Source: a bacterium
GTDB taxonomy: Bacteria; CSSED10-310; JAJRTK01
Reading direction: 5' to 3'
Assembly (NCBI GenBank): GCA_024278345.1
Contig: JAJRTK010000360.1
Span: 1-12,373 of the forward strand
Length of the DNA stretch: 12,373 nucleotides
The position numbers and the translations under genes are program-made. The first letter of the stretch is position 1; each line of letters opens with the position of its first letter. The notes under the pieces are model-generated. The model made no database searches and was not told where the DNA came from. It was given only the letters and a program-made list of their open reading frames with translations. Shown piece after piece: positions 331-12,373 of this stretch.

Positions 331-2784
331 GTGAACGATTCCTACGGAGTCATCGGGAAACCTACCCGACGAGTGGATGCCCGAGGCAAAGTCCTGGGTC
401 AAACAAGTTTCGCCGACGACCTGTCGATGCCGGGAATGCTCCACTGCAAACTGCTCCGATCTCCCAAACCCCACGCGCGGATTCTTTCCATCGACACGAC
501 CCGGGCCCGGGAGGCGGAGGGCGTCCAACTGGTACTTACGGGGCGGGAAATGCCCATTTCGTTCGGCGTGCTTCCGGTGAGCCAGGACGAGCATGCGCTC
601 TGCCCCGAAGTGGCGCGTTTCGTCGGTGATCCCGTAGCTGCGGTCGTGGCTCGAACCGAAGAACAAGCCGCCGATGCCCTCCAACTCATCGAGGTGGGAT
701 ACGGAGAACTGCCAGTCATCCGGACGCCTCTGGAAGCCCTGAGGCCCACCGAGCATCCCATCCACGATTATGGCGTTCGCGGCAACATCCACAAGCTGGT
801 CTCCCTCCGGTTTGGTGACACAGCGGCGGCCTTCGAGGAGGCGGACCACCTTTTCGAGGATCTCTTTTTCTACGAGGGGAACACTCACCTGCCCCTGGAG
901 CAACACGCGACCCTGGCGGCGCTGGAGCCCGACGGAAAGCTGATCGTCCATTCCAGCACCCAGACGCCGCACTACCTTCACAAAGCCCTTGCACGGGTCT
1001 TGGAGATCTCCCCGGGCCGGATTCGGGTGGTGGCGACGCCCAACGGAGGCGGATTCGGCGGAAAGACCGACCCCTTCAACCACGAGATCGTCGTGGCGAA
1101 GGCTGCCCTGCTCACGGGGAGGCCGGTGAAGATCTGTCTGACGCGCCTGGAAGTCTTTTACTGCCACCGCGGCCGGCATCCGGTGCTGCTCTCTCTCAAG
1201 ACCGGGGTCAAGTCAGATGGTACCCTGACGGGGATGGAGCTCAAGACCCTATTGGACGGCGGCGCTTACGGATCTTACGGGGTTGCCAGCACCTTCTACA
1301 CCGGTGCCTTGCAGACGGTCACCTACACGCTGCCACGCTACTTCTTCCGCGGTGCGCGAACTTTCACGAACAAGCCTCCCTGTGGGCCGAAACGAGGCCA
1401 CGGTACGCCGCAGCCCCGGTTTGGCCAAGAAGTGCAGCTCGACAAAATCGCCTGCAAATTGGCGATCGATCCGGCCGATTTGCGCCTCCAGCAGCTTGTC
1501 GAGGCGGGGGATCTCACCGCCAACTGGCTAGAGGTTCCCAGTATTGGACTTCGCCAGTGCATCGAGAAAGTCGTTGACGGATCCGGTTGGCGGGATCGCC
1601 GCGGAAAGCTGCCGGAAGGCCGTGGCCTGGGGCTCGCCTGTTCCTCCTACCTCAGTGGGGCAGGCCTTCCCATCTATTGGAACCGGATGCCCCATTCCGG
1701 CGTGCAACTACTTCTGGACCGTGGCGGCGGCGTGACGGCCTTCTGTGGAGCGACGGAAGTGGGGCAGGGCTCGGATCACGTGCTGGCGGCCTGTGTCGCC
1801 GAGGTTCTGGGCCTTCAGCCGGATGACATCCGGCTGGTGACGGGGGATACGGGTCTGGCGCCGGTGGATTTGGGTTCCTACTCCAGCCGCGTCACCTTGA
1901 TGATGGGAAACGCGGCCATCGAGGCGGCGACGAAAGCCCGGGATCTTTTGGCGGAGGCCGTGGCGGCGAAGCTGGAGTCCTCCGTGGCTGGGATCCTTTT
2001 CTCCGGCGGCCGGGTCCTGGACCGGGATAAACCGGAAACCAGTATGCCTTTCGCCGCCGCTGTCGTGGCGGCGGAATCGAAGTTCGGCACCATCGGAACC
2101 GTCGGTTCCTACACGCCGCCGCGGGCTCCGGGCCGCTACAAGGGAGCCGGCGTCGGGCCGTCGCCCACTTATTCCTACAGTGCGGCCATCGTGGAGGTGG
2201 AAGCCGACTCTCTCACCGGCGAATTTCGCGTGGTAAAAGTCTGGATCGCCCACGATATCGGGCAATGTATCAACCCCACTCTGGTCCGTGGCCAGGTGGA
2301 AGGCGGCGTCTATATGGGCCTCGGGGAGGCCCTCATGGAGGAACAGACCTTCCGTGCTCCTCCGCGGCGGCTCTCCAATGCCCTCCTTCACAAGGCGCCC
2401 TCATTCCTTGAATACAAGAGCCTCACTCCACTGGAGATGCCCGACGTGGAGGTCTACTTGGTGGAAGAACCCGATTCCCGCGGGCCGTTCGGGGCCAAGG
2501 AAGTGGGGCAGGGACCGCTCCTGCCCATCATGCCGGCCGTGGCCAATGCCCTCTTCGACGCCATCGGCGTTCGCATCGACGCGCTCCCCATCACGCCCGA
2601 TAAGATCTGCAAGGCCCTGGACCGGAAGGCGCGGGGCGCGGAGCCCAGATTCGGGCCGGATCGGTTCCCTGAAATCGATTGGCCGGATCCCTTGGAGATC
2701 CCGCCACCCTGGGAAGGCGGCGACGGCCGCGCCCTTGGCCAAGCCCCAAGCCGCCCGAAAACCACTGGAGGCAACCGATCATGA
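331..2784 (+). CDS. hcrA: 4-hydroxybenzoyl-CoA reductase-like alpha subunit, molybdopterin-binding (xanthine dehydrogenase family)
   Basis: 817 residues. In this family the subunit carries molybdopterin cytosine dinucleotide; the Thauera enzyme reductively removes the hydroxyl of 4-hydroxybenzoyl-CoA during anaerobic aromatic degradation. The GTG start at 331 has GGAGGT (320-325) five bases upstream. The N-terminal third holds the a/b hammerhead domain (about 15-125, with FVGDPVAAVVA). Cofactor-binding signatures follow: EQH at 190-192, NGGGFGGK at 238-245, PPCGPKRGHGT around R355, then a GQGS loop and the DLGSYSSRVT segment. The C-terminal FGAKEVGQGPL is the active-site loop, where Gln727 replaces the usual Glu. 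A proline-rich tail (PEIDWPDP, PPWEGGDG) makes it about 50 residues longer than the Thauera alpha subunit. Its TGA overlaps the ATG of the beta gene. The family is certain; the substrate is inferred mainly from the beta subunit and could be another aromatic acyl-CoA. Confidence 0.85.
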   Translation: MNDSYGVIGKPTRRVDARGKVLGQTSFADDLSMPGMLHCKLLRSPKPHARILSIDTTRAREAEGVQLVLTGREMPISFGVLPVSQDEHALCPEVARFVGDPVAAVVARTEEQAADALQLIEVGYGELPVIRTPLEALRPTEHPIHDYGVRGNIHKLVSLRFGDTAAAFEEADHLFEDLFFYEGNTHLPLEQHATLAALEPDGKLIVHSSTQTPHYLHKALARVLEISPGRIRVVATPNGGGFGGKTDPFNHEIVVAKAALLTGRPVKICLTRLEVFYCHRGRHPVLLSLKTGVKSDGTLTGMELKTLLDGGAYGSYGVASTFYTGALQTVTYTLPRYFFRGARTFTNKPPCGPKRGHGTPQPRFGQEVQLDKIACKLAIDPADLRLQQLVEAGDLTANWLEVPSIGLRQCIEKVVDGSGWRDRRGKLPEGRGLGLACSSYLSGAGLPIYWNRMPHSGVQLLLDRGGGVTAFCGATEVGQGSDHVLAACVAEVLGLQPDDIRLVTGDTGLAPVDLGSYSSRVTLMMGNAAIEAATKARDLLAEAVAAKLESSVAGILFSGGRVLDRDKPETSMPFAAAVVAAESKFGTIGTVGSYTPPRAPGRYKGAGVGPSPTYSYSAAIVEVEADSLTGEFRVVKVWIAHDIGQCINPTLVRGQVEGGVYMGLGEALMEEQTFRAPPRRLSNALLHKAPSFLEYKSLTPLEMPDVEVYLVEEPDSRGPFGAKEVGQGPLLPIMPAVANALFDAIGVRIDALPITPDKICKALDRKARGAEPRFGPDRFPEIDWPDPLEIPPPWEGGDGRALGQAPSRPKTTGGNRS

Positions 2785-3764
2785 TGAGGCTTCCAAAATT
2801 CCGTTACCTTGGCGCCAAGAGCCTGAAAGAGGCGCTCCAGGCCCTGGGGAGTGTTGGGCCGGAGGGGCGCGCCGTCGCCGGAGGCACGGATCTTCTGCCC
2901 AATATGAAGCGGCGGCAGCAGCAGCCGAAACTGTTGGTGGGGCTCCGGCAGGTACCCGAGCTTCAGAGCCTGTCGGGCGAATCCGGCGGTTCCCTTGGGC
3001 TGGGGGCATGCCTGACCCTGAGTGAAATCGCAGGGAACGCCGCCCTCCAAGACGACTACGCCGCCTTGAGTCTTGCCGCCCGAGCGGTGGCGACTCCGGC
3101 GCTTCGGAACATGGGGACCCTGGGAGGCAACCTCTGCCTTGACACCCGGTGCAACTACTACTGCCAGGATCAGGAATGGCGGGAGGCCCTGGGCTACTGC
3201 ATGAAAAAAGATGGCTCCATCTGCTGGGTGGCGCCGTCCAGTCCCCGCTGTTGGGCTGTCTCGTCGTGCGACACGGCGCCAGCCGCTATCGCCCTGGGTG
3301 CCCGGGTGCGGTTGGCCTCGGCTTCCGGTAGAAGGGAGATAGACCTTTCGGACCTCTACCTGGACGACGGGATCCGGTATCTTTCCCTGGAACCGGGCGA
3401 GCTGGTGGAGGGAATTTTGCTCCCGCCGGCGCAAGGTTGGGTGAGCACCTATCGCAAGATCCGGCGGAGGGGCAGCATCGACTTCCCCATCCTGTCGGTG
3501 GCCGCCGCCCTGAAGTTGGATGGCGGAGTGGTGGAAAAAGCCCGGATCGTTTTCGGTGCCGTGGGTTCCCGCCCGAAGCAGGCCAAGGAAGCCGCCGCCT
3601 TCCTTGGGGGAGAAAGGCTCACGGCGGAATCCATCGAGGAGGCAGCCAGGCTCGCGGCGAAGGCGGCCCGGCCCTTGGACAATACCGACGGCGGTCTGAG
3701 CTGGCGGAAGCGCATAGCCCAAGCCACCGTCGTCCGTGCTCTGGAGGAGATCCTTCGGGGTTGA
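2781..3764 (+). CDS. hcrB: 4-hydroxybenzoyl-CoA reductase-like beta subunit, FAD and [4Fe-4S]-binding
   Basis: 327 residues, close to the roughly 324 of Thauera HcrB. The start is the ATG at 2781 because it overlaps the alpha-subunit TGA (ATGA) and GGAGG lies at 2767-2771; an in-frame ATG follows at 2784. An upstream in-frame extension would lie inside the alpha gene. FAD-binding motifs are AGGTDLLPNM near residue 35 and TPALRNMGTLGGNLCLDTR around residues 104-123. The diagnostic feature is an inserted cysteine-rich loop: C124, C140, C148 and C157 have the same 16/8/9 spacing as the four [4Fe-4S] ligands of HcrB, a cluster that ordinary xanthine dehydrogenase FAD subunits lack. C119, C128 and C163 are extra. 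The C-terminal half is the CO dehydrogenase flavoprotein C-terminal fold. It should pass electrons between FAD, [4Fe-4S] and a gamma [2Fe-2S] subunit, which is not encoded nearby. Confidence 0.88.
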   Translation: MMRLPKFRYLGAKSLKEALQALGSVGPEGRAVAGGTDLLPNMKRRQQQPKLLVGLRQVPELQSLSGESGGSLGLGACLTLSEIAGNAALQDDYAALSLAARAVATPALRNMGTLGGNLCLDTRCNYYCQDQEWREALGYCMKKDGSICWVAPSSPRCWAVSSCDTAPAAIALGARVRLASASGRREIDLSDLYLDDGIRYLSLEPGELVEGILLPPAQGWVSTYRKIRRRGSIDFPILSVAAALKLDGGVVEKARIVFGAVGSRPKQAKEAAAFLGGERLTAESIEEAARLAAKAARPLDNTDGGLSWRKRIAQATVVRALEEILRG

Positions 3765-4471: not shown

Positions 4472-4783
4472 GGTTTTTCTCCTTGATCGTCGTCTAGCCG
4501 GGGGTTTACTCTTCTACCCAAACGCGCTCGTAAGAGCCCGTCTGGAGAAGCGATGCTAGCGCAGCGGCTCCATCGAGGTAAAGTGGGGGGCAGTGGAGCC
4601 CCTCATTGATTTGGCACTGGAGGCATGGATGACCTATCGTAGAAAAGAGTAAGATCGATGCTGGGCGGCGGGGTGCCTTTTCATCCGGTGGGTGAGCAGC
4701 GGGAGCGGCTGCGACTGATGCGAACGGAACACAACAAAAAGGCTAAGGATCCCCTAGATGAACAGGGGAGAGGTGGAGGCAGC
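4472..4783. other. Divergent intergenic region between the GNAT and di-iron genes
   Basis: 312 bases without a supported gene. It must hold the promoters of both flanking genes. For the + strand a candidate is TTGGCA (4611-4616), 18 bases, TATCGT (4635-4640). The di-iron frame stays open back to an ATG at 4658, but the encoded extension is charged and low in family-like sequence, and that ATG lacks a good ribosome site. If transcription starts near 4647, the transcript has a leader of roughly 135 bases. A short CGATG/CATCG inverted repeat spans 4551-4575. No clear - strand promoter was identified. Confidence 0.5.
4611..4640 (+). promoter_or_regulatory. Candidate promoter for the di-iron gene
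   Basis: TTGGCA (5/6 to the -35 consensus), an 18-base spacer and TATCGT (4/6 to the -10 consensus) on the + strand upstream of the di-iron gene. It is plausible by position and spacing only. Confidence 0.3.
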
Positions 4784-5932
4784 ATGATTGAGAATAAACT
4801 GAAGATCAGTCACCGGGCGGCGGTGGTGAACCATTGGCTCGAGGAGATGACCAACAAGGTGGTGCGCTCTTACGATGGGGTGATGGGCATGGTGCGCCTC
4901 GGTGGCCGGAAGGCGAAGTACGATGACTCCAATTACGAGTTTATCGGCGGTCCCAGGGATCGGCTCCGGGCCCGGCACTACGACAAGAGCTTGAGGCTGC
5001 TCTGGAAGGCGGAGGAGCATGCTCCGTGGTCGAGTTTCCGGGACTGCACGTCGGTGGAACGAGCCGTGTTGGAACAGGCTCTCAAGACGATGACCAAGGA
5101 AGAGCAAGATGCGCGGCGGCGGCTGGTTTCCAAGGAGTTCAAAGAGCTTCTGGACGAGAGCTATACCCGTCGTGAAAAAGAGGCGATCGTCTCGATCCTG
5201 AGTGCCATTGGCCATGGAGAAGCCTATGCCTGGCTTGTTTCCGCGGAGCTTCTGGGCGAGGTCCAGAGCACGGGAGGAAAAGCGGCCTGCACCCTTCAAG
5301 TGCTGGAGGAAGCGAAGCATTTCGTCGTGCTCCGGGAGCTTTTGCAGGCGTTCGACGTTCCCATTCCTCGGCAGTCGGCTTGGGAATACCTGCTTCTGGA
5401 GCAGGTTTTCAAGGCGGACGGTTTGGAAAAGTTCTTTGGGATGAACGTGCTGGTGGAGGGCATCGCGCTGAGCATTTTCGGGATGCTGAGCGAAATGCCG
5501 GGCTTGGATATCCTTCGGCTGTTCCACCTGGACGAATCGCGGCACACGGCGCTGCCCATGAATTACTTCAAGGAGTTTCCCTTGAGCGTGTGGCAGAAGC
5601 ACAACCCAGTGGCGCGGCTTGGGCGGCTGAAGCTTGTGCTGCCCGCGGTGCCGCTCATCTTCCTGCTGGAAGAGGATTTGGCCGAGCTTGGGATCGACGT
5701 GTTCGAGTTCGGCGGCTCGGTGCTCCGGAAGATCGGCTATTTGGCGGAAAGGGCGGGTTTCTACCTTCCCATTCCTAGCTGGCTCTTCGTCAGCTTGCTC
5801 AACAGCCTGTTCAATGTCTATTGTAGGGCTACGCGCCCTGATTACGAGTATCGGAACTACGCCGTTGCCGAAACCACGAGGGGCAAGCGGGAACAAGAAG
5901 TCGAAGCGGAGATTTTCGGAGCTCCAGCCTGA
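4784..5932 (+). CDS. Ferritin-like di-iron carboxylate protein of unknown substrate
   Basis: 382 residues from the ATG at 4784, chosen because GGAGG sits at 4775-4779; an in-frame ATG at 4658 would add 42 residues of unlikely sequence. The protein shows the complete two-fold ligand pattern of a four-helix-bundle di-iron enzyme: Glu146 (HGEAY), Glu176/His179 (EEAKH), Glu225 (VLVEGIAL) and Glu251/His254 (DESRH). The spacings of 30 and 26 residues match paired bundle helices. Ferritin-like enzymes of this kind activate O2 for oxidation, desaturation or N-oxygenation, or store or sense iron. The length, nearly twice a ferritin, and the long hydrophobic C-terminal helices (from about residue 285, KLVLPAVPLIFLL and SWLFVSLLNSLFNVYC) point to an oxygenase-like enzyme that may touch membrane or lipid. 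I cannot name the subfamily. It lies 72 bases upstream of the kinase gene on the same strand. Confidence 0.72.
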   Translation: MIENKLKISHRAAVVNHWLEEMTNKVVRSYDGVMGMVRLGGRKAKYDDSNYEFIGGPRDRLRARHYDKSLRLLWKAEEHAPWSSFRDCTSVERAVLEQALKTMTKEEQDARRRLVSKEFKELLDESYTRREKEAIVSILSAIGHGEAYAWLVSAELLGEVQSTGGKAACTLQVLEEAKHFVVLRELLQAFDVPIPRQSAWEYLLLEQVFKADGLEKFFGMNVLVEGIALSIFGMLSEMPGLDILRLFHLDESRHTALPMNYFKEFPLSVWQKHNPVARLGRLKLVLPAVPLIFLLEEDLAELGIDVFEFGGSVLRKIGYLAERAGFYLPIPSWLFVSLLNSLFNVYCRATRPDYEYRNYAVAETTRGKREQEVEAEIFGAPA

Positions 5933-8008: not shown

Positions 8009-8725
8009 ATGTTCGCGCCCATCAAAAAGCAGAAAGTCGCCGAGCAGGTGGCCGCATCCCTGCGGGGGGCCATCCTTTCGGGGCGGCTCAAGCCCTCGGA
8101 TGCCGTGCCTTCGGAGCGCGTTCTTGCCGAACGGTTCGACGTCAACCGGTCCAGTATCCGCGAAGCGCTGCTTCGGCTGGAGAGCTGGGGGCTCATCGAG
8201 ATCCGCCAGGGTGAGGCGACTCGGGTGAAAAACTTCCTGGAATCGGGGGGGCTCCAGCTTCTCCCCTACCTTATTGCGCCAGACGGCGAGCTTGATCTTC
8301 CGCTTCTGGCCGACCTTTTGGAGATCCGCGTGATGCTCTTGGGGTGGACGGCCGAGCAGGCGGCCCAAAAGTGCTCGCCGGAGGATATTTCGGGGCTCAT
8401 GGAGATCATTAGCCGCTTGGAGGATCCAGGAGCCTCCCCGGAGACGCGGCAAAAGCTGGACTACGATTTCTTCGAGCGCCTTGTGGCGACAACCAAGAAC
8501 CGTGTCCTCATCTTTTTGAGCAATGCCATCCGCGATGTCTACATGCAGCAGCGCGGCCTCTTCATGACCTTTTACCAAGACGATGTGTTCGATCCGCGGT
8601 ATTATCGGGCCGTGGTGGAGGCGCTGGCCGCGGGCGACCCCTTGGGCGCAGGCCAGGCAATGCGTCTCCAGGCCGCGGTCTTCGATGCCGGCTGGTGGAG
8701 CACTTCTGGAGCCGAAACGACATGA
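8009..8725 (+). CDS. FadR-like GntR-family transcriptional regulator
   Basis: 238 residues; E. coli FadR has 239. The N-terminal winged helix (about 1-75) has the GntR pattern SERVLAERFDVNRSSIREAL. Arg37, Arg47 and Arg51 align, with a constant offset of two, with FadR Arg35, Arg45 and Arg49, which contact DNA. The wing (RQGEATRVKNFLES) also follows FadR's HGKPTKVNNFWET. The helical effector domain lacks the Asp/His metal set of FCD regulators: where FCD proteins have D-x-x-x-H, this one reads LDYDFFERL, like FadR's LDYNIFRGL. It therefore resembles the acyl-CoA-binding FadR_C type. Together with the FadR-like operator this implies repression released by a long-chain acyl-CoA or similar ligand. 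FadR proper is known mainly from gammaproteobacteria, so orthology is uncertain. Its TGA overlaps the ATG of the lipocalin-like gene. Confidence 0.82.
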   Translation: MFAPIKKQKVAEQVAASLRGAILSGRLKPSDAVPSERVLAERFDVNRSSIREALLRLESWGLIEIRQGEATRVKNFLESGGLQLLPYLIAPDGELDLPLLADLLEIRVMLLGWTAEQAAQKCSPEDISGLMEIISRLEDPGASPETRQKLDYDFFERLVATTKNRVLIFLSNAIRDVYMQQRGLFMTFYQDDVFDPRYYRAVVEALAAGDPLGAGQAMRLQAAVFDAGWWSTSGAETT

Positions 8726-9804
8726 TGGAGCGTTTTCTTTCCAAGACACCGCTGGTGGGGCGCTGGTTCGGCCAAGGCGCCCGATCGGCAAGAACGGCCA
8801 ACAGCCTCAGGTTCGATTCCCGTGCCGTGAAGGGCCACGTGGAAAGCTACTTTCTGCGGGCCAATCACCCCAGTTTGCCGAAAGCGATTTGGCTCAAGGC
8901 AACGATCCTCTCCAGGCCGAAGGGCGCCACCGCGGATGCCTGGTGCATCGTTTTCGACGGTGAGCGTGGTCGGACGTGGGCTCACCGCGAGACGGTCTGG
9001 ATGGGCCAAACTCGATTCGAAGACGGCGCCAGCGGTGGACTTTTCGCCAGCATCGCCGGGTGTGACTTCGATTTCGGAAGCCCCGGAGGCGCCAAGGGCC
9101 AGATGCAAGGACCCGACGGGCATTGCTCCTGGGATCTGGCCTGGGTCGCCCCCGAATCCCCTTTGGCCCGCGAACTCTGCATCTATCCCTATGAGGCGAT
9201 GGTCGAGGGTCCATTTCCGCGTTCCAAGCTTCTGACTCCCTATCCCTATCTACGGTTTTCTGGGCGTGTGGAGTGCTTCGGGGAGGCGATGGATTTGGAC
9301 GGCTGGCACGGAATGCAGGGTCACAACTGGGGCCGCGAGCACGCCTGGGAATATGCTTGGGGCCAGTGTCTCTTTCCAGGCGCTACGGGAAAACCCCACT
9401 GCATGGTGGAAGGATTTACGGGCCGTATACGGGTGGCAGGGGTGGTGAGCCCCAGGATGTCGGCCATGGTGATCCGGCGGGGAGACCGTGCGTACCGGTT
9501 CGACGGGATCTTCGATTTTTGGCGGCAGCGCTCCGAGATCGGCCAGACCAGTTGGACGCTCCACCTTTCGGGGCGTGACGGCGAAGCCCTTCTTGTCATG
9601 GTTGCCGATCCCTCTCTCATGGTCTGCCTGGGCTACCAGAACCCGGATCGCCGGATTTCTTATTGCCTGAACAGCAAGCTTGCCCGGGTCCACCTTCGGG
9701 TCAACCCCAGGAACGACGATGCATTCCAGTGCCAAAGCGAAGATGGCGGTGCTCTGGAGTTCCTTCGCAACGACCCCGACCCCCGTTTCCACCGGGTTGT
9801 CTGA
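8722..9804 (+). CDS. Lipocalin-like protein of the CrtC/AttH/tocopherol-cyclase type
   Basis: 360 residues. The start at 8722 is chosen because ATGA overlaps the regulator's stop and TGGAG lies ten bases upstream; an in-frame ATG at 8695 would overlap the regulator by 31 bases. No signal peptide or membrane segment is visible. The sequence is rich in alternating beta strands and aromatic residues. Its hallmark is GMQGHNWGREHAWEYAWGQC (HNWG at 201-204, His207), which resembles the NWG...W..QC core of tocopherol cyclase and the related segment of CrtC and AttH-like proteins. YRFDGIFDFW followed by SWTLHLSG continues the resemblance. These double-barrel proteins bind or cyclise/hydrate isoprenoid or other hydrophobic chains. 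I infer binding or modification of a lipid; no specific reaction can be assigned. Coupling to a FadR-like regulator and the GMC oxidase downstream supports a role in lipid metabolism. Confidence 0.65.
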   Translation: MMERFLSKTPLVGRWFGQGARSARTANSLRFDSRAVKGHVESYFLRANHPSLPKAIWLKATILSRPKGATADAWCIVFDGERGRTWAHRETVWMGQTRFEDGASGGLFASIAGCDFDFGSPGGAKGQMQGPDGHCSWDLAWVAPESPLARELCIYPYEAMVEGPFPRSKLLTPYPYLRFSGRVECFGEAMDLDGWHGMQGHNWGREHAWEYAWGQCLFPGATGKPHCMVEGFTGRIRVAGVVSPRMSAMVIRRGDRAYRFDGIFDFWRQRSEIGQTSWTLHLSGRDGEALLVMVADPSLMVCLGYQNPDRRISYCLNSKLARVHLRVNPRNDDAFQCQSEDGGALEFLRNDPDPRFHRVV

Positions 9805-10002: not shown

Positions 10003-12373
10003 ATGGGTGTTTCCTTTTTCGAGACGATGCGCGGCTCCCTCCGGGACACCGAGGGAATCGAGCATCCCGTGGAGTTCCAGATCAAAGCCGAAGCGACTCG
10101 GCTCTCCAGTTTTCTCTGGAGCGGAGAAGCTCGGATCACGGGGGTGATCAATGCCGCTCCATGGGCCGATGAAGCGGCATTGGAAGGCGTGATCCGGGTC
10201 TCTCCCTTGGTCGAGCGGTCGATCTCCTATTCTTTCCGGTTCATGAACGAAGACCAGGAAGAATTTGAGCTCTCCGGCGCCAAGTCCATCACTCCGTTTC
10301 ATCCTCTTCGGTCCTTCACGGAGCTCCAGGCAACACTCCGAAAGATCGATGTGGAAGAGCCGCTCGGCTCAGGAGAACTGTACTTCCATTGGAAGGACTT
10401 GCCCCAATTTTTGGCATCTTGGTGGCCCGGTGCCCGAATCGCCCAGTACGACCTGGAGGTCCCCCCCCCAGAAACTCTAGGCGAAGAGGGGCTCTTCGGG
10501 ACGGTTCTGGAAGAAACCCTCCGTGCCGTGGTGGAGGCGGCTTTCGAAAAAGGGAGATTCGTTCCGGCCGGGGACGAGCTGACCCTCCAGGCCGCTCGGC
10601 AGCTCCTGTCCGAAGCGCCATCAGGCCTCATCCAGGGCTACTCCGCTTCTCTCCGATGGATCGATGCAGCGGCCTGGAAAAGCCACGGCCAGCGGTTCGC
10701 GGCGCTGGACCTCCCCACAAGACAGGCACTGCTGTGCGACCTTGTGGAGCCGGGAACCAGCCTCACGGATCAGATCCGATCTTGGATGACCCGACTGGTG
10801 CTCCTGCCCATCAAGGCCGTCCATTTCGACCGAGCCGATTACCTCGAGGCCCTGGGCCATCCCAAGCTGGCGGCGCCACAGCCTGAGGCTCCCCCGAGCT
10901 ACCTTTCCCAGGTGACCCGGGCCGAGGATCTCGATCCCATCACCGAGATCCGGGCAGATGTCGTCATCGTCGGAACCGGAGCCGGCGGAGCTCCGTTGGC
11001 TCTGGAGCTGGCGCGCTCCGGCCTGGCCGTAGCCATGATCGAGGAGGGCAGCTTCAAGAGTCGCCAGGACTTTTTCGGGAGCCCGTTGACCCGGATCGAG
11101 TCCCTGTGGCGGAATCGAGGAATCACCCTCATCGTCGGCACGCCCATTACCATCCCCACTGGCCGGGTCGTGGGAGGCACCACCACCATCAATTCCGGCA
11201 CCTGCTACCCCACTCCGGATCCGGTCCTCAGGATCTGGCGCCACGACCTTGGCTACCCCGGAGAATTCGAGCCGGATGAATACCATGATTACTCGGAGCG
11301 AGTAGCCGCCGCACTGGAAGTGGCGCCGGCGGGAGAAACGGAGCTCGGTGGAGTTGGGGCGGTCCTCCAGCGCGGAGCCAGAGCCCTTGGCCTGGAACGA
11401 ACGGCGCTTCCAAGGAACGCGCCCGGATGCTCCGCCGCCGGGGTTTGCGTCTTCGGTTGTCCCGATGGCGCAAAAAAATCGGCCGACGTGGCTTTTGTGC
11501 CCGGGGCGCTGAAACTAGGAGCCGCCTTGTTCACGGGGCTTCCCGTGACCCGCATCCTGATGCGGGGCAAGCGAGCCGTGGCCGTGGAGGCCAGGGGAGC
11601 GGATCGATTCGGCGCTTCCAAGGTGCTCCGGATCTTTGCCGAGCGGATCGTGCTTTCCTGCGGCAGCCTTCACACGCCTCTTCTTCTTAGGGACAACGGG
11701 ATCCATCTCCCCGGGCTTGGCAAAAACCTCTCGGTCCACCCGGGCATGGGACTCATCGCCAAGATGCCCGAAGACCTCCAGCCATGGGCCGCCATTCCCC
11801 AGGGCTGCGGCATAGAAGGGCACGGTATCGAAGGCATACGATACGAAGGATTTTACTTGCCGCCACAGCTCTTTGCGCCATCCCTGCCCATGGCCGGAGC
11901 CGAACTGACCCATTGGATGGACGACTTTCATCGCCTGGCCCAGTTCGGATTCATGGTGAAAGACGAAAGCCTGGGCAGTGTGCATCGAGGCCCCGGAGGC
12001 CGTCCTCTCATCCGGTACAAGATCTCCCAGCGGAGCCTCCACCGGATCAAGCGAGGCTCCGCACTCCTGTCCGAGCTCTTCCTCCGGGCCGGAGCCCTGG
12101 AAGTCCTCACCGGTATGGCGGGACGCCCTATCGTCCGCACCATCGACGAGGCCCGGTCACTCCGAACCATGCCCCTGGCCGCCTACGACTTGCAGCTCCT
12201 GGGCGCACACCCCCTGGGCACCTGCGCCATGGGCAGCGATCCCAAGCGGGCGGTGGTCGATTTCGACCACCGCGTCTTCGGGACCGAGAACCTCCACGTC
12301 GTCGATGGGAGCAACGTCCCAACTTCCCTGGGCGTCAACCCGCAGATGACTATTATGGCCTTCGCCCTCCGCG
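10003..12373 (+). CDS. GMC family FAD-dependent oxidoreductase, long-chain alcohol oxidase-like, with N-terminal extension (partial at the 3' edge)
   Basis: 790 codons without a stop, cut by the window end. The ATG at 10003 has AAGGA (9991-9995) seven bases upstream. Residues 1 to about 155 form a beta-rich domain (FFETMRGSL, ELSGAKSI) not usual in GMC enzymes. Residues about 170-310 are helical and resemble the N-terminal region of fatty alcohol oxidases and the gluconate 2-dehydrogenase subunit 3 fold. The catalytic part begins with VVIVGTGAGGAP (G324, G326, G329), followed by GRVVGGTTTINSG (387-399) and the Cys segment C476/C482/C486 (GCSAAGVCVFGCPDGAKKS). Next come LSCGSLHTP and the active-site pair His736 (AHPLGTC) and Asn779 (SLGVNPQMT). 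Such enzymes oxidise an alcohol to an aldehyde or ketone using FAD. The Cys/GCPxGAK segment and helical region favour long-chain alcohol or sterol-like substrates; the exact one is inferred. Only a few C-terminal residues should be missing. Confidence 0.85.
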   Translation, partial: MGVSFFETMRGSLRDTEGIEHPVEFQIKAEATRLSSFLWSGEARITGVINAAPWADEAALEGVIRVSPLVERSISYSFRFMNEDQEEFELSGAKSITPFHPLRSFTELQATLRKIDVEEPLGSGELYFHWKDLPQFLASWWPGARIAQYDLEVPPPETLGEEGLFGTVLEETLRAVVEAAFEKGRFVPAGDELTLQAARQLLSEAPSGLIQGYSASLRWIDAAAWKSHGQRFAALDLPTRQALLCDLVEPGTSLTDQIRSWMTRLVLLPIKAVHFDRADYLEALGHPKLAAPQPEAPPSYLSQVTRAEDLDPITEIRADVVIVGTGAGGAPLALELARSGLAVAMIEEGSFKSRQDFFGSPLTRIESLWRNRGITLIVGTPITIPTGRVVGGTTTINSGTCYPTPDPVLRIWRHDLGYPGEFEPDEYHDYSERVAAALEVAPAGETELGGVGAVLQRGARALGLERTALPRNAPGCSAAGVCVFGCPDGAKKSADVAFVPGALKLGAALFTGLPVTRILMRGKRAVAVEARGADRFGASKVLRIFAERIVLSCGSLHTPLLLRDNGIHLPGLGKNLSVHPGMGLIAKMPEDLQPWAAIPQGCGIEGHGIEGIRYEGFYLPPQLFAPSLPMAGAELTHWMDDFHRLAQFGFMVKDESLGSVHRGPGGRPLIRYKISQRSLHRIKRGSALLSELFLRAGALEVLTGMAGRPIVRTIDEARSLRTMPLAAYDLQLLGAHPLGTCAMGSDPKRAVVDFDHRVFGTENLHVVDGSNVPTSLGVNPQMTIMAFALR

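Follow-up and report, generated by a model that had tools for sequence, protein, structure and literature searches.

A distinct, uncharacterised clade of predicted ferritin-like di-metal oxygenases related to AurF, R2lox, and ADO

The locus and its neighbouring genes

The window (the whole stretch of DNA analysed here, 12,373 nucleotides) carries on its forward strand a gene that translates cleanly into a protein of 382 residues, P0001, preceded by genes for molybdenum hydroxylase subunits and followed by genes for a lipocalin-like protein and a GMC oxidoreductase (Table 1). An alternative in-frame start at 4658 would extend the protein to 424 residues. The N-termini of the orthologues correspond instead to the methionine at 4784, with the consensus MxFxKLPxNxRA in a 60-protein alignment, and we rely on these starts, together with the GGAGG ahead of the gene, in assigning the start of P0001 to 4784 rather than 4658.

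Table 1. Coordinates of the genes and sequence features discussed in the text
Feature	Position	Strand	Description or basis
Molybdenum hydroxylase, large and FAD subunits	331..3764	+	most like 4-hydroxybenzoyl-CoA reductase
GGAGG, Shine-Dalgarno-like sequence	4775..4779	+	4 nt 5' of ATG; read directly from sequence
Predicted di-metal oxygenase gene	4784..5932	+	382 aa (P0001); clean translation
N-terminal box R-x2-HYDKSLRLLWKAE...PWSSFRD...E, codons 62-92	4967..5059	+	orthologue alignment and profile comparison
Proposed ligand E146 codon (GHGEAYAW; helix 129-157)	5219..5221	+	invariant 60/60; helix in model
Proposed ligands E176 and H179 codons (EEAKH; helix 163-189)	5309..5320	+	invariant 60/60; helix in model
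Proposed ligand E225 codon (LVEGIAL; helix 214-235)	5456..5458	+	invariant 60/60; helix in model
Proposed ligands E251 and H254 codons (FHLDESRH; helix 244-264)	5534..5545	+	invariant 60/60; helix in model
C-terminal hydrophobic helices, codons 276-350	5609..5833	+	predicted part of bundle; no evident transmembrane segment
Lipocalin-like protein	8722..9804	+	no Pfam match
GMC oxidoreductase	10003..12372	+	cut by contig end

We surveyed the neighbours of the oxygenase gene at 62 loci with a purpose-written gene caller, which recovered the window's own genes correctly. The only clearly recurrent neighbour was a TetR regulator whose C-terminal domain is of the BetI type. It adjoins the oxygenase gene in 19 of 62 loci compared with 3 of 311 genes further away (a background of ~1%), a contrast somewhat inflated because 17 of these regulators had gone into the profile. 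In 12 loci it immediately precedes the oxygenase gene on the same strand, separated from it by 3-34 nt, in five it lies directly downstream, and in two it is divergent; AraC regulators adjoin or lie near the oxygenase gene in several other loci. The window has no adjacent TetR gene, and its genome gives only weak, generic-strength matches to the profile of linked TetR proteins. Other neighbours vary widely across the 62 loci, with acyl-CoA-type genes only scattered among them, and for this reason context does not fix the substrate.

An earlier sequence-only reading of this DNA had contrasted the O2-dependent enzyme it proposed with a typically anaerobic reductase encoded upstream. This contrast is not established, because both subunits of the window's molybdenum hydroxylase score below the curated cut-offs for 4-hydroxybenzoyl-CoA reductase (757 vs 995 and 292 vs 405 bits). 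Like the [4Fe-4S]-bearing type, the window's FAD subunit contains a Cys-rich insert, and no gene for a [2Fe-2S] subunit was seen on the window's contig. At one other locus (L043:1156-6393), a related set lies directly upstream of the oxygenase gene on the same strand, with large and FAD subunits 45% and 37% identical to those of the window, and also includes a [2Fe-2S] subunit and an FeS-assembly protein; this arrangement, found at 2 of 62 loci, possibly reflects chance. Nor do the lipocalin-like and GMC genes, whose co-occurrence the same reading had suggested checking, form a conserved association: each gave one weak match in 62 loci. A protein 31% identical to the window's lipocalin-like protein, encoded at L023 (6707-7720), weakly resembles tocopherol cyclase, and the GMC oxidoreductase is longer by ~300 residues at its N-terminus.

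Conservation, metal-site ligands, and predicted fold

When a single genome per species was scanned, 63 loci encoding relatives were recovered, most of them 52-66% identical over almost their entire length, in Myxococcota, Spirochaetota, Gammaproteobacteria, Dadabacteria, and Bdellovibrionota-type and other MAGs. Whole-genome tests found one near-full-length copy per positive genome, with the exception of the genome behind L062, where a second, diverged paralogue (L088:588-1775) is 35% identical to P0001 and keeps the ligand motifs. The gene is patchily distributed—present in 15 of 188 Myxococcota genomes, 3 of 100 Spirochaetota genomes, and 2 of 8 genomes of the window's own phylum—and this patchiness, combined with high identity across phyla, suggests that it may have spread horizontally. 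No relatives were confirmed on viral contigs, and in the literature we found no paper describing the family.

An alignment of 60 orthologues, 50-65% identical (A1), contains more than 60 invariant positions. Among these are all six residues that had been proposed from the sequence as ligands of a ferritin-like di-iron site—E146, E176, H179, E225, E251, and H254—and since each is found at its named position in 60/60 orthologues, the pattern is not due to chance. Also invariant are H144, Q172, E175, R184, N221, F247, H248, D250, and R253, and the N-terminal box (codons 62-92) ranks among the most conserved segments. The ligands are spaced 30/46/26 in P0001, and the family carries the motifs EExxH and FHxDExxH. 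Two His and four carboxylates are found in the majority of di-iron hydroxylases, sites with three His and four carboxylates are largely confined to AurF-type N-oxygenases, and CylC halogenases carry QExxH and HxxDExxH (PMC12101540). The seventh ligand of AurF is a third His, placed four residues ahead of the final Glu. It is absent from the P0001 family, in which this position, one turn before E251, is F247 in 60/60 orthologues and the invariant H248 lies one residue past it; the CylC signature is likewise absent, with E175 and F247 at the diagnostic positions in 60/60. With Phe in place of the third His and no halogenase signature, what remains is a hydroxylase-type set of two His and four carboxylates, as read from the alignment, pointing to C-H oxidation.

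An AlphaFold2 model of P0001 calculated with A1 (pLDDT 83.5, pTM 0.84) agrees with an AlphaFold model of a second orthologue, L004 (pLDDT 83.5, pTM 0.82). Each of the six ligands of P0001 sits in a confidently predicted helix, and the four ligand helices follow the same order as in ferritin-like oxygenases. In comparisons with VIA-align 2, aldehyde-deformylating oxygenase (ADO) was the top match to the P0001 model (Z 19.6, 2.9 Å over 209 aligned residues), followed by soluble methane monooxygenase (sMMO) hydroxylase (Z 18.6) and R2-like proteins (Z 18.5); ADO again came first for the L004 model, with R2 and sMMO just below. Foldseek returned no match to the P0001 model at E ≤ 0.001 (best E 0.056), and because its E-values are weak, the fold assignment rests on the Z-scores, the order of the ligands, and the profile comparison described below. 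From this combination of alignment and model, a predicted ferritin-like four-helix bundle carrying E, ExxH, E, and ExxH in that order is well supported, and the fold match implies that the six ligands would converge. The conserved N-terminal segment is predicted with low confidence in both models (residues 55-102 in P0001 and 53-90 in L004), and the models consequently do not define the substrate pocket.

The long hydrophobic C-terminal helices of P0001 had earlier been taken to indicate an enzyme at the membrane edge. This region does contain hydrophobic stretches, at 276-302, with a Kyte-Doolittle 19-residue mean reaching 1.57, but the peak for the whole protein, 1.78, falls in the E225 ligand helix (217-235). 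The membrane-edge placement finds no support in the model, where residues ~271-360 are predicted with pLDDT 92-96 and the alignment with ADO extends to residue ~340. Membrane association of P0001 is not supported by hydropathy either, as no 19-residue segment is evidently transmembrane; a simpler reading is that the C-terminal hydrophobicity would belong to a hydrophobic core or substrate tunnel.

Placement among known di-metal proteins

In line with the sequence-only reading, which could name no family for it, P0001 had no match among Pfam and NCBIfam models (E ≤ 1) or among PDB sequences (E ≤ 10), and searches of the 60 orthologues against Pfam, NCBIfam, and PDB sequences gave nothing significant. 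None of the 60 passes the cut-off of the AurF model PF11583, and only one matches it at all (E 0.035). Genomes carrying the oxygenase gene also carry distant paralogues—up to five AurF-like proteins per genome (L089, L091-L101, L067)—most of which, among those tested, score below the Pfam AurF cut-off, and which make up an under-described group of di-metal proteins. Plasmid records yielded only distant, unannotated AurF-like proteins; in one such record, that of Tistrella mobilis plasmid pTM3 (L070:2756-5604), the AurF-like protein has as encoded neighbours a TetR regulator and a ferritin-fold protein resembling PaaA/PaaC.

The distant paralogues and three plasmid-borne relatives were gathered into an alignment of 13 AurF-like proteins (A4), two of which pass the PF11583 cut-off. 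Comparison of A1 with A4 by hhalign gave a probability of 99.4% (E 8e-22), with all six ligands aligned and the N-terminal HYDKSLRLLWKAE stretch aligned to an LYxKxKxxxWD motif (LWKAE/Wd). A combined profile of orthologues and AurF-like relatives retrieved R2lox first from the PDB (7qbk, E 3.9e-12), with the VlmB homologue 6d9f and ADO among the lower matches; when the R2lox structures 7qbk and 6qrz were aligned through this profile, both showed the E, EExxH, VEG, and DExRH motifs. The N-terminal box of P0001 corresponds to the motif LYxxxKxxxWd found in AurF-like proteins and in R2lox. In a tree, the orthologues and the paralogue L088 split from all other rows on a long branch with support of 100/100, although long branches make any finer placement unsure.

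Judged from profiles and models together, the P0001 family is a distinct, uncharacterised clade in the superfamily that includes AurF/VlmB-type N-oxygenases, R2lox, and ADO; the AurF- and R2-like clans, among those that the sequence-only reading had recommended for a search, were the right place to look. The suggestion of an O2-dependent oxygenase also holds up at the level of class: invariant ligands, structure matches to oxygenases and R2 proteins, and the AurF-like profile match make the prediction of a ferritin-like di-metal oxygenase well supported. Its metals are probably Fe/Fe, with Mn/Fe a possible alternative.

Proposed function and competing explanations

We propose, with middling confidence, that P0001 is a soluble, ferritin-fold, O2-activating di-metal oxygenase, often under TetR control, that oxidises C-H bonds of a hydrophobic, probably fatty-acyl, substrate. 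The four helices would carry the two-His/four-carboxylate site, with E146 and E176/H179 contributed by the first pair of helices and E225 and E251/H254 by the other pair; E175 and D250 would probably serve the two site histidines as second-sphere acceptors. By analogy with the superfamily, the reduced di-metal centre would bind O2 to form a peroxo or higher-valent intermediate that oxidises the bound substrate, by hydroxylation or desaturation. The oxygenase would act as a single polypeptide, and because no partner gene recurs, we infer that its electrons come from general carriers of the cell, either ferredoxin or flavoprotein. A hydrophobic, acyl-type substrate is the weakest step of the proposal; it may be indicated by the fatty acid bound by R2lox (PMC6399176), the alkane hydroxylation reported for Geobacillus R2lox (PMC10867098), the palmitate with which ADO was crystallised in one of the structure matches (4kvq), and the scattered acyl-CoA-type neighbours. 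The TetR gene adjoining the oxygenase in ~30% of loci suggests that substrate or product induces expression.

Among the relatives that Pfam assigns to a family, those nearest in sequence belong to PF11583, the p-aminobenzoate N-oxygenase (AurF) family, and this family, with its VlmB-type relatives, shares with P0001 a homology detected by profile comparison, six common ligands, and an N-terminal Y...K...W motif, while a VlmB homologue also surfaced in the combined-profile search. Even so, P0001 is unlikely to be an N-oxygenase like AurF, CmlI, or VlmB that takes part in a small biosynthetic step by oxidising an amine or hydrazine: the family lies wholly outside the PF11583 cut-off, the third His of the AurF motif HxxxExxH is replaced throughout by F247 with the invariant H248 next to it, and no consistent biosynthetic cluster lies beside the gene. 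The CylC/NocO dimetal halogenases resemble the P0001 family in their AurF-like fold class and E/H-rich site (PMC12101540), from which it departs in having EExxH and FHxDExxH rather than the halogenase motifs in every orthologue. We consider it quite unlikely that P0001 is an enzyme like ADO (PF11266), converting a fatty aldehyde to a hydrocarbon or shorter product, despite the rank of ADO as top structure match for both models. The ligand spacing of P0001 does resemble that of ADO, but identity is ~13-14%, there is no PF11266 match (E ≤ 1), P0001 has ~120 additional N-terminal residues, and the Z-score of ADO is nearly tied with those of sMMO and R2, within ~1 unit; an untargeted look at the neighbours noticed no recurrent acyl-ACP reductase.

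The hydroxylases of the sMMO and phenol hydroxylase type (PF02332) share the fold and the two-His/four-Glu set with P0001, which is by comparison a single short chain: none of the genes of a multicomponent monooxygenase (beta/gamma subunits, reductase, effector protein) is found in the window, and across the 62 loci no partner operon is conserved. R2lox (R2-like ligand-binding oxidase), a protein with a Mn/Fe cofactor and a Tyr-Val ether cross-link, has the EEAKH, VEG, and DESRH motifs and the same ligand set, and ranked first when PDB sequences were searched with the combined profile. This would suit a non-catalytic or self-modifying R2lox/R2-like metalloprotein, such as a metal-radical/cross-link protein or a partner in a regulatory complex, but we hold that explanation to be very unlikely; the orthologues alone give no direct sequence match to R2lox, P0001 does not match the R2 model PF00268, and its patchy, accessory distribution and TetR linkage better fit catabolic or modifying enzymes. 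As for a storage or detoxifying ferritin-like protein, the four-helix bundle and Glu/His site are held in common, and yet the idea is scarcely credible: P0001 matches no Pfam ferritin family and none is among the families listed for its orthologues, the 50 listed best structure matches are all oxygenases and R2 proteins, and the protein differs both in its conserved N-terminal box and, as had been noted from the sequence, in its length (382 aa vs 160-180 aa for a single bundle).

Ferritin-fold di-metal enzymes have repeatedly turned out to catalyse new reactions, including N-oxidation, azoxy formation, halogenation, and alkane formation. The C-H-oxidising oxygenase proposed here belongs to a well-conserved, cross-phylum clade without any Pfam or NCBIfam model, and its frequent occurrence in a two-gene cassette with its own TetR makes the inducer, and so the pathway, experimentally reachable. 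More tentatively, P0001 may be the first representative of a functional subfamily that is new: an oxygenase acting alone and induced through TetR, distinguished by its unusual conserved N-terminal box and by H248, an additional histidine in a shifted position close to the metal site. Such an enzyme would carry out an undescribed lipid or acyl oxidation in Myxococcota, Spirochaetota, and other environmental bacteria.
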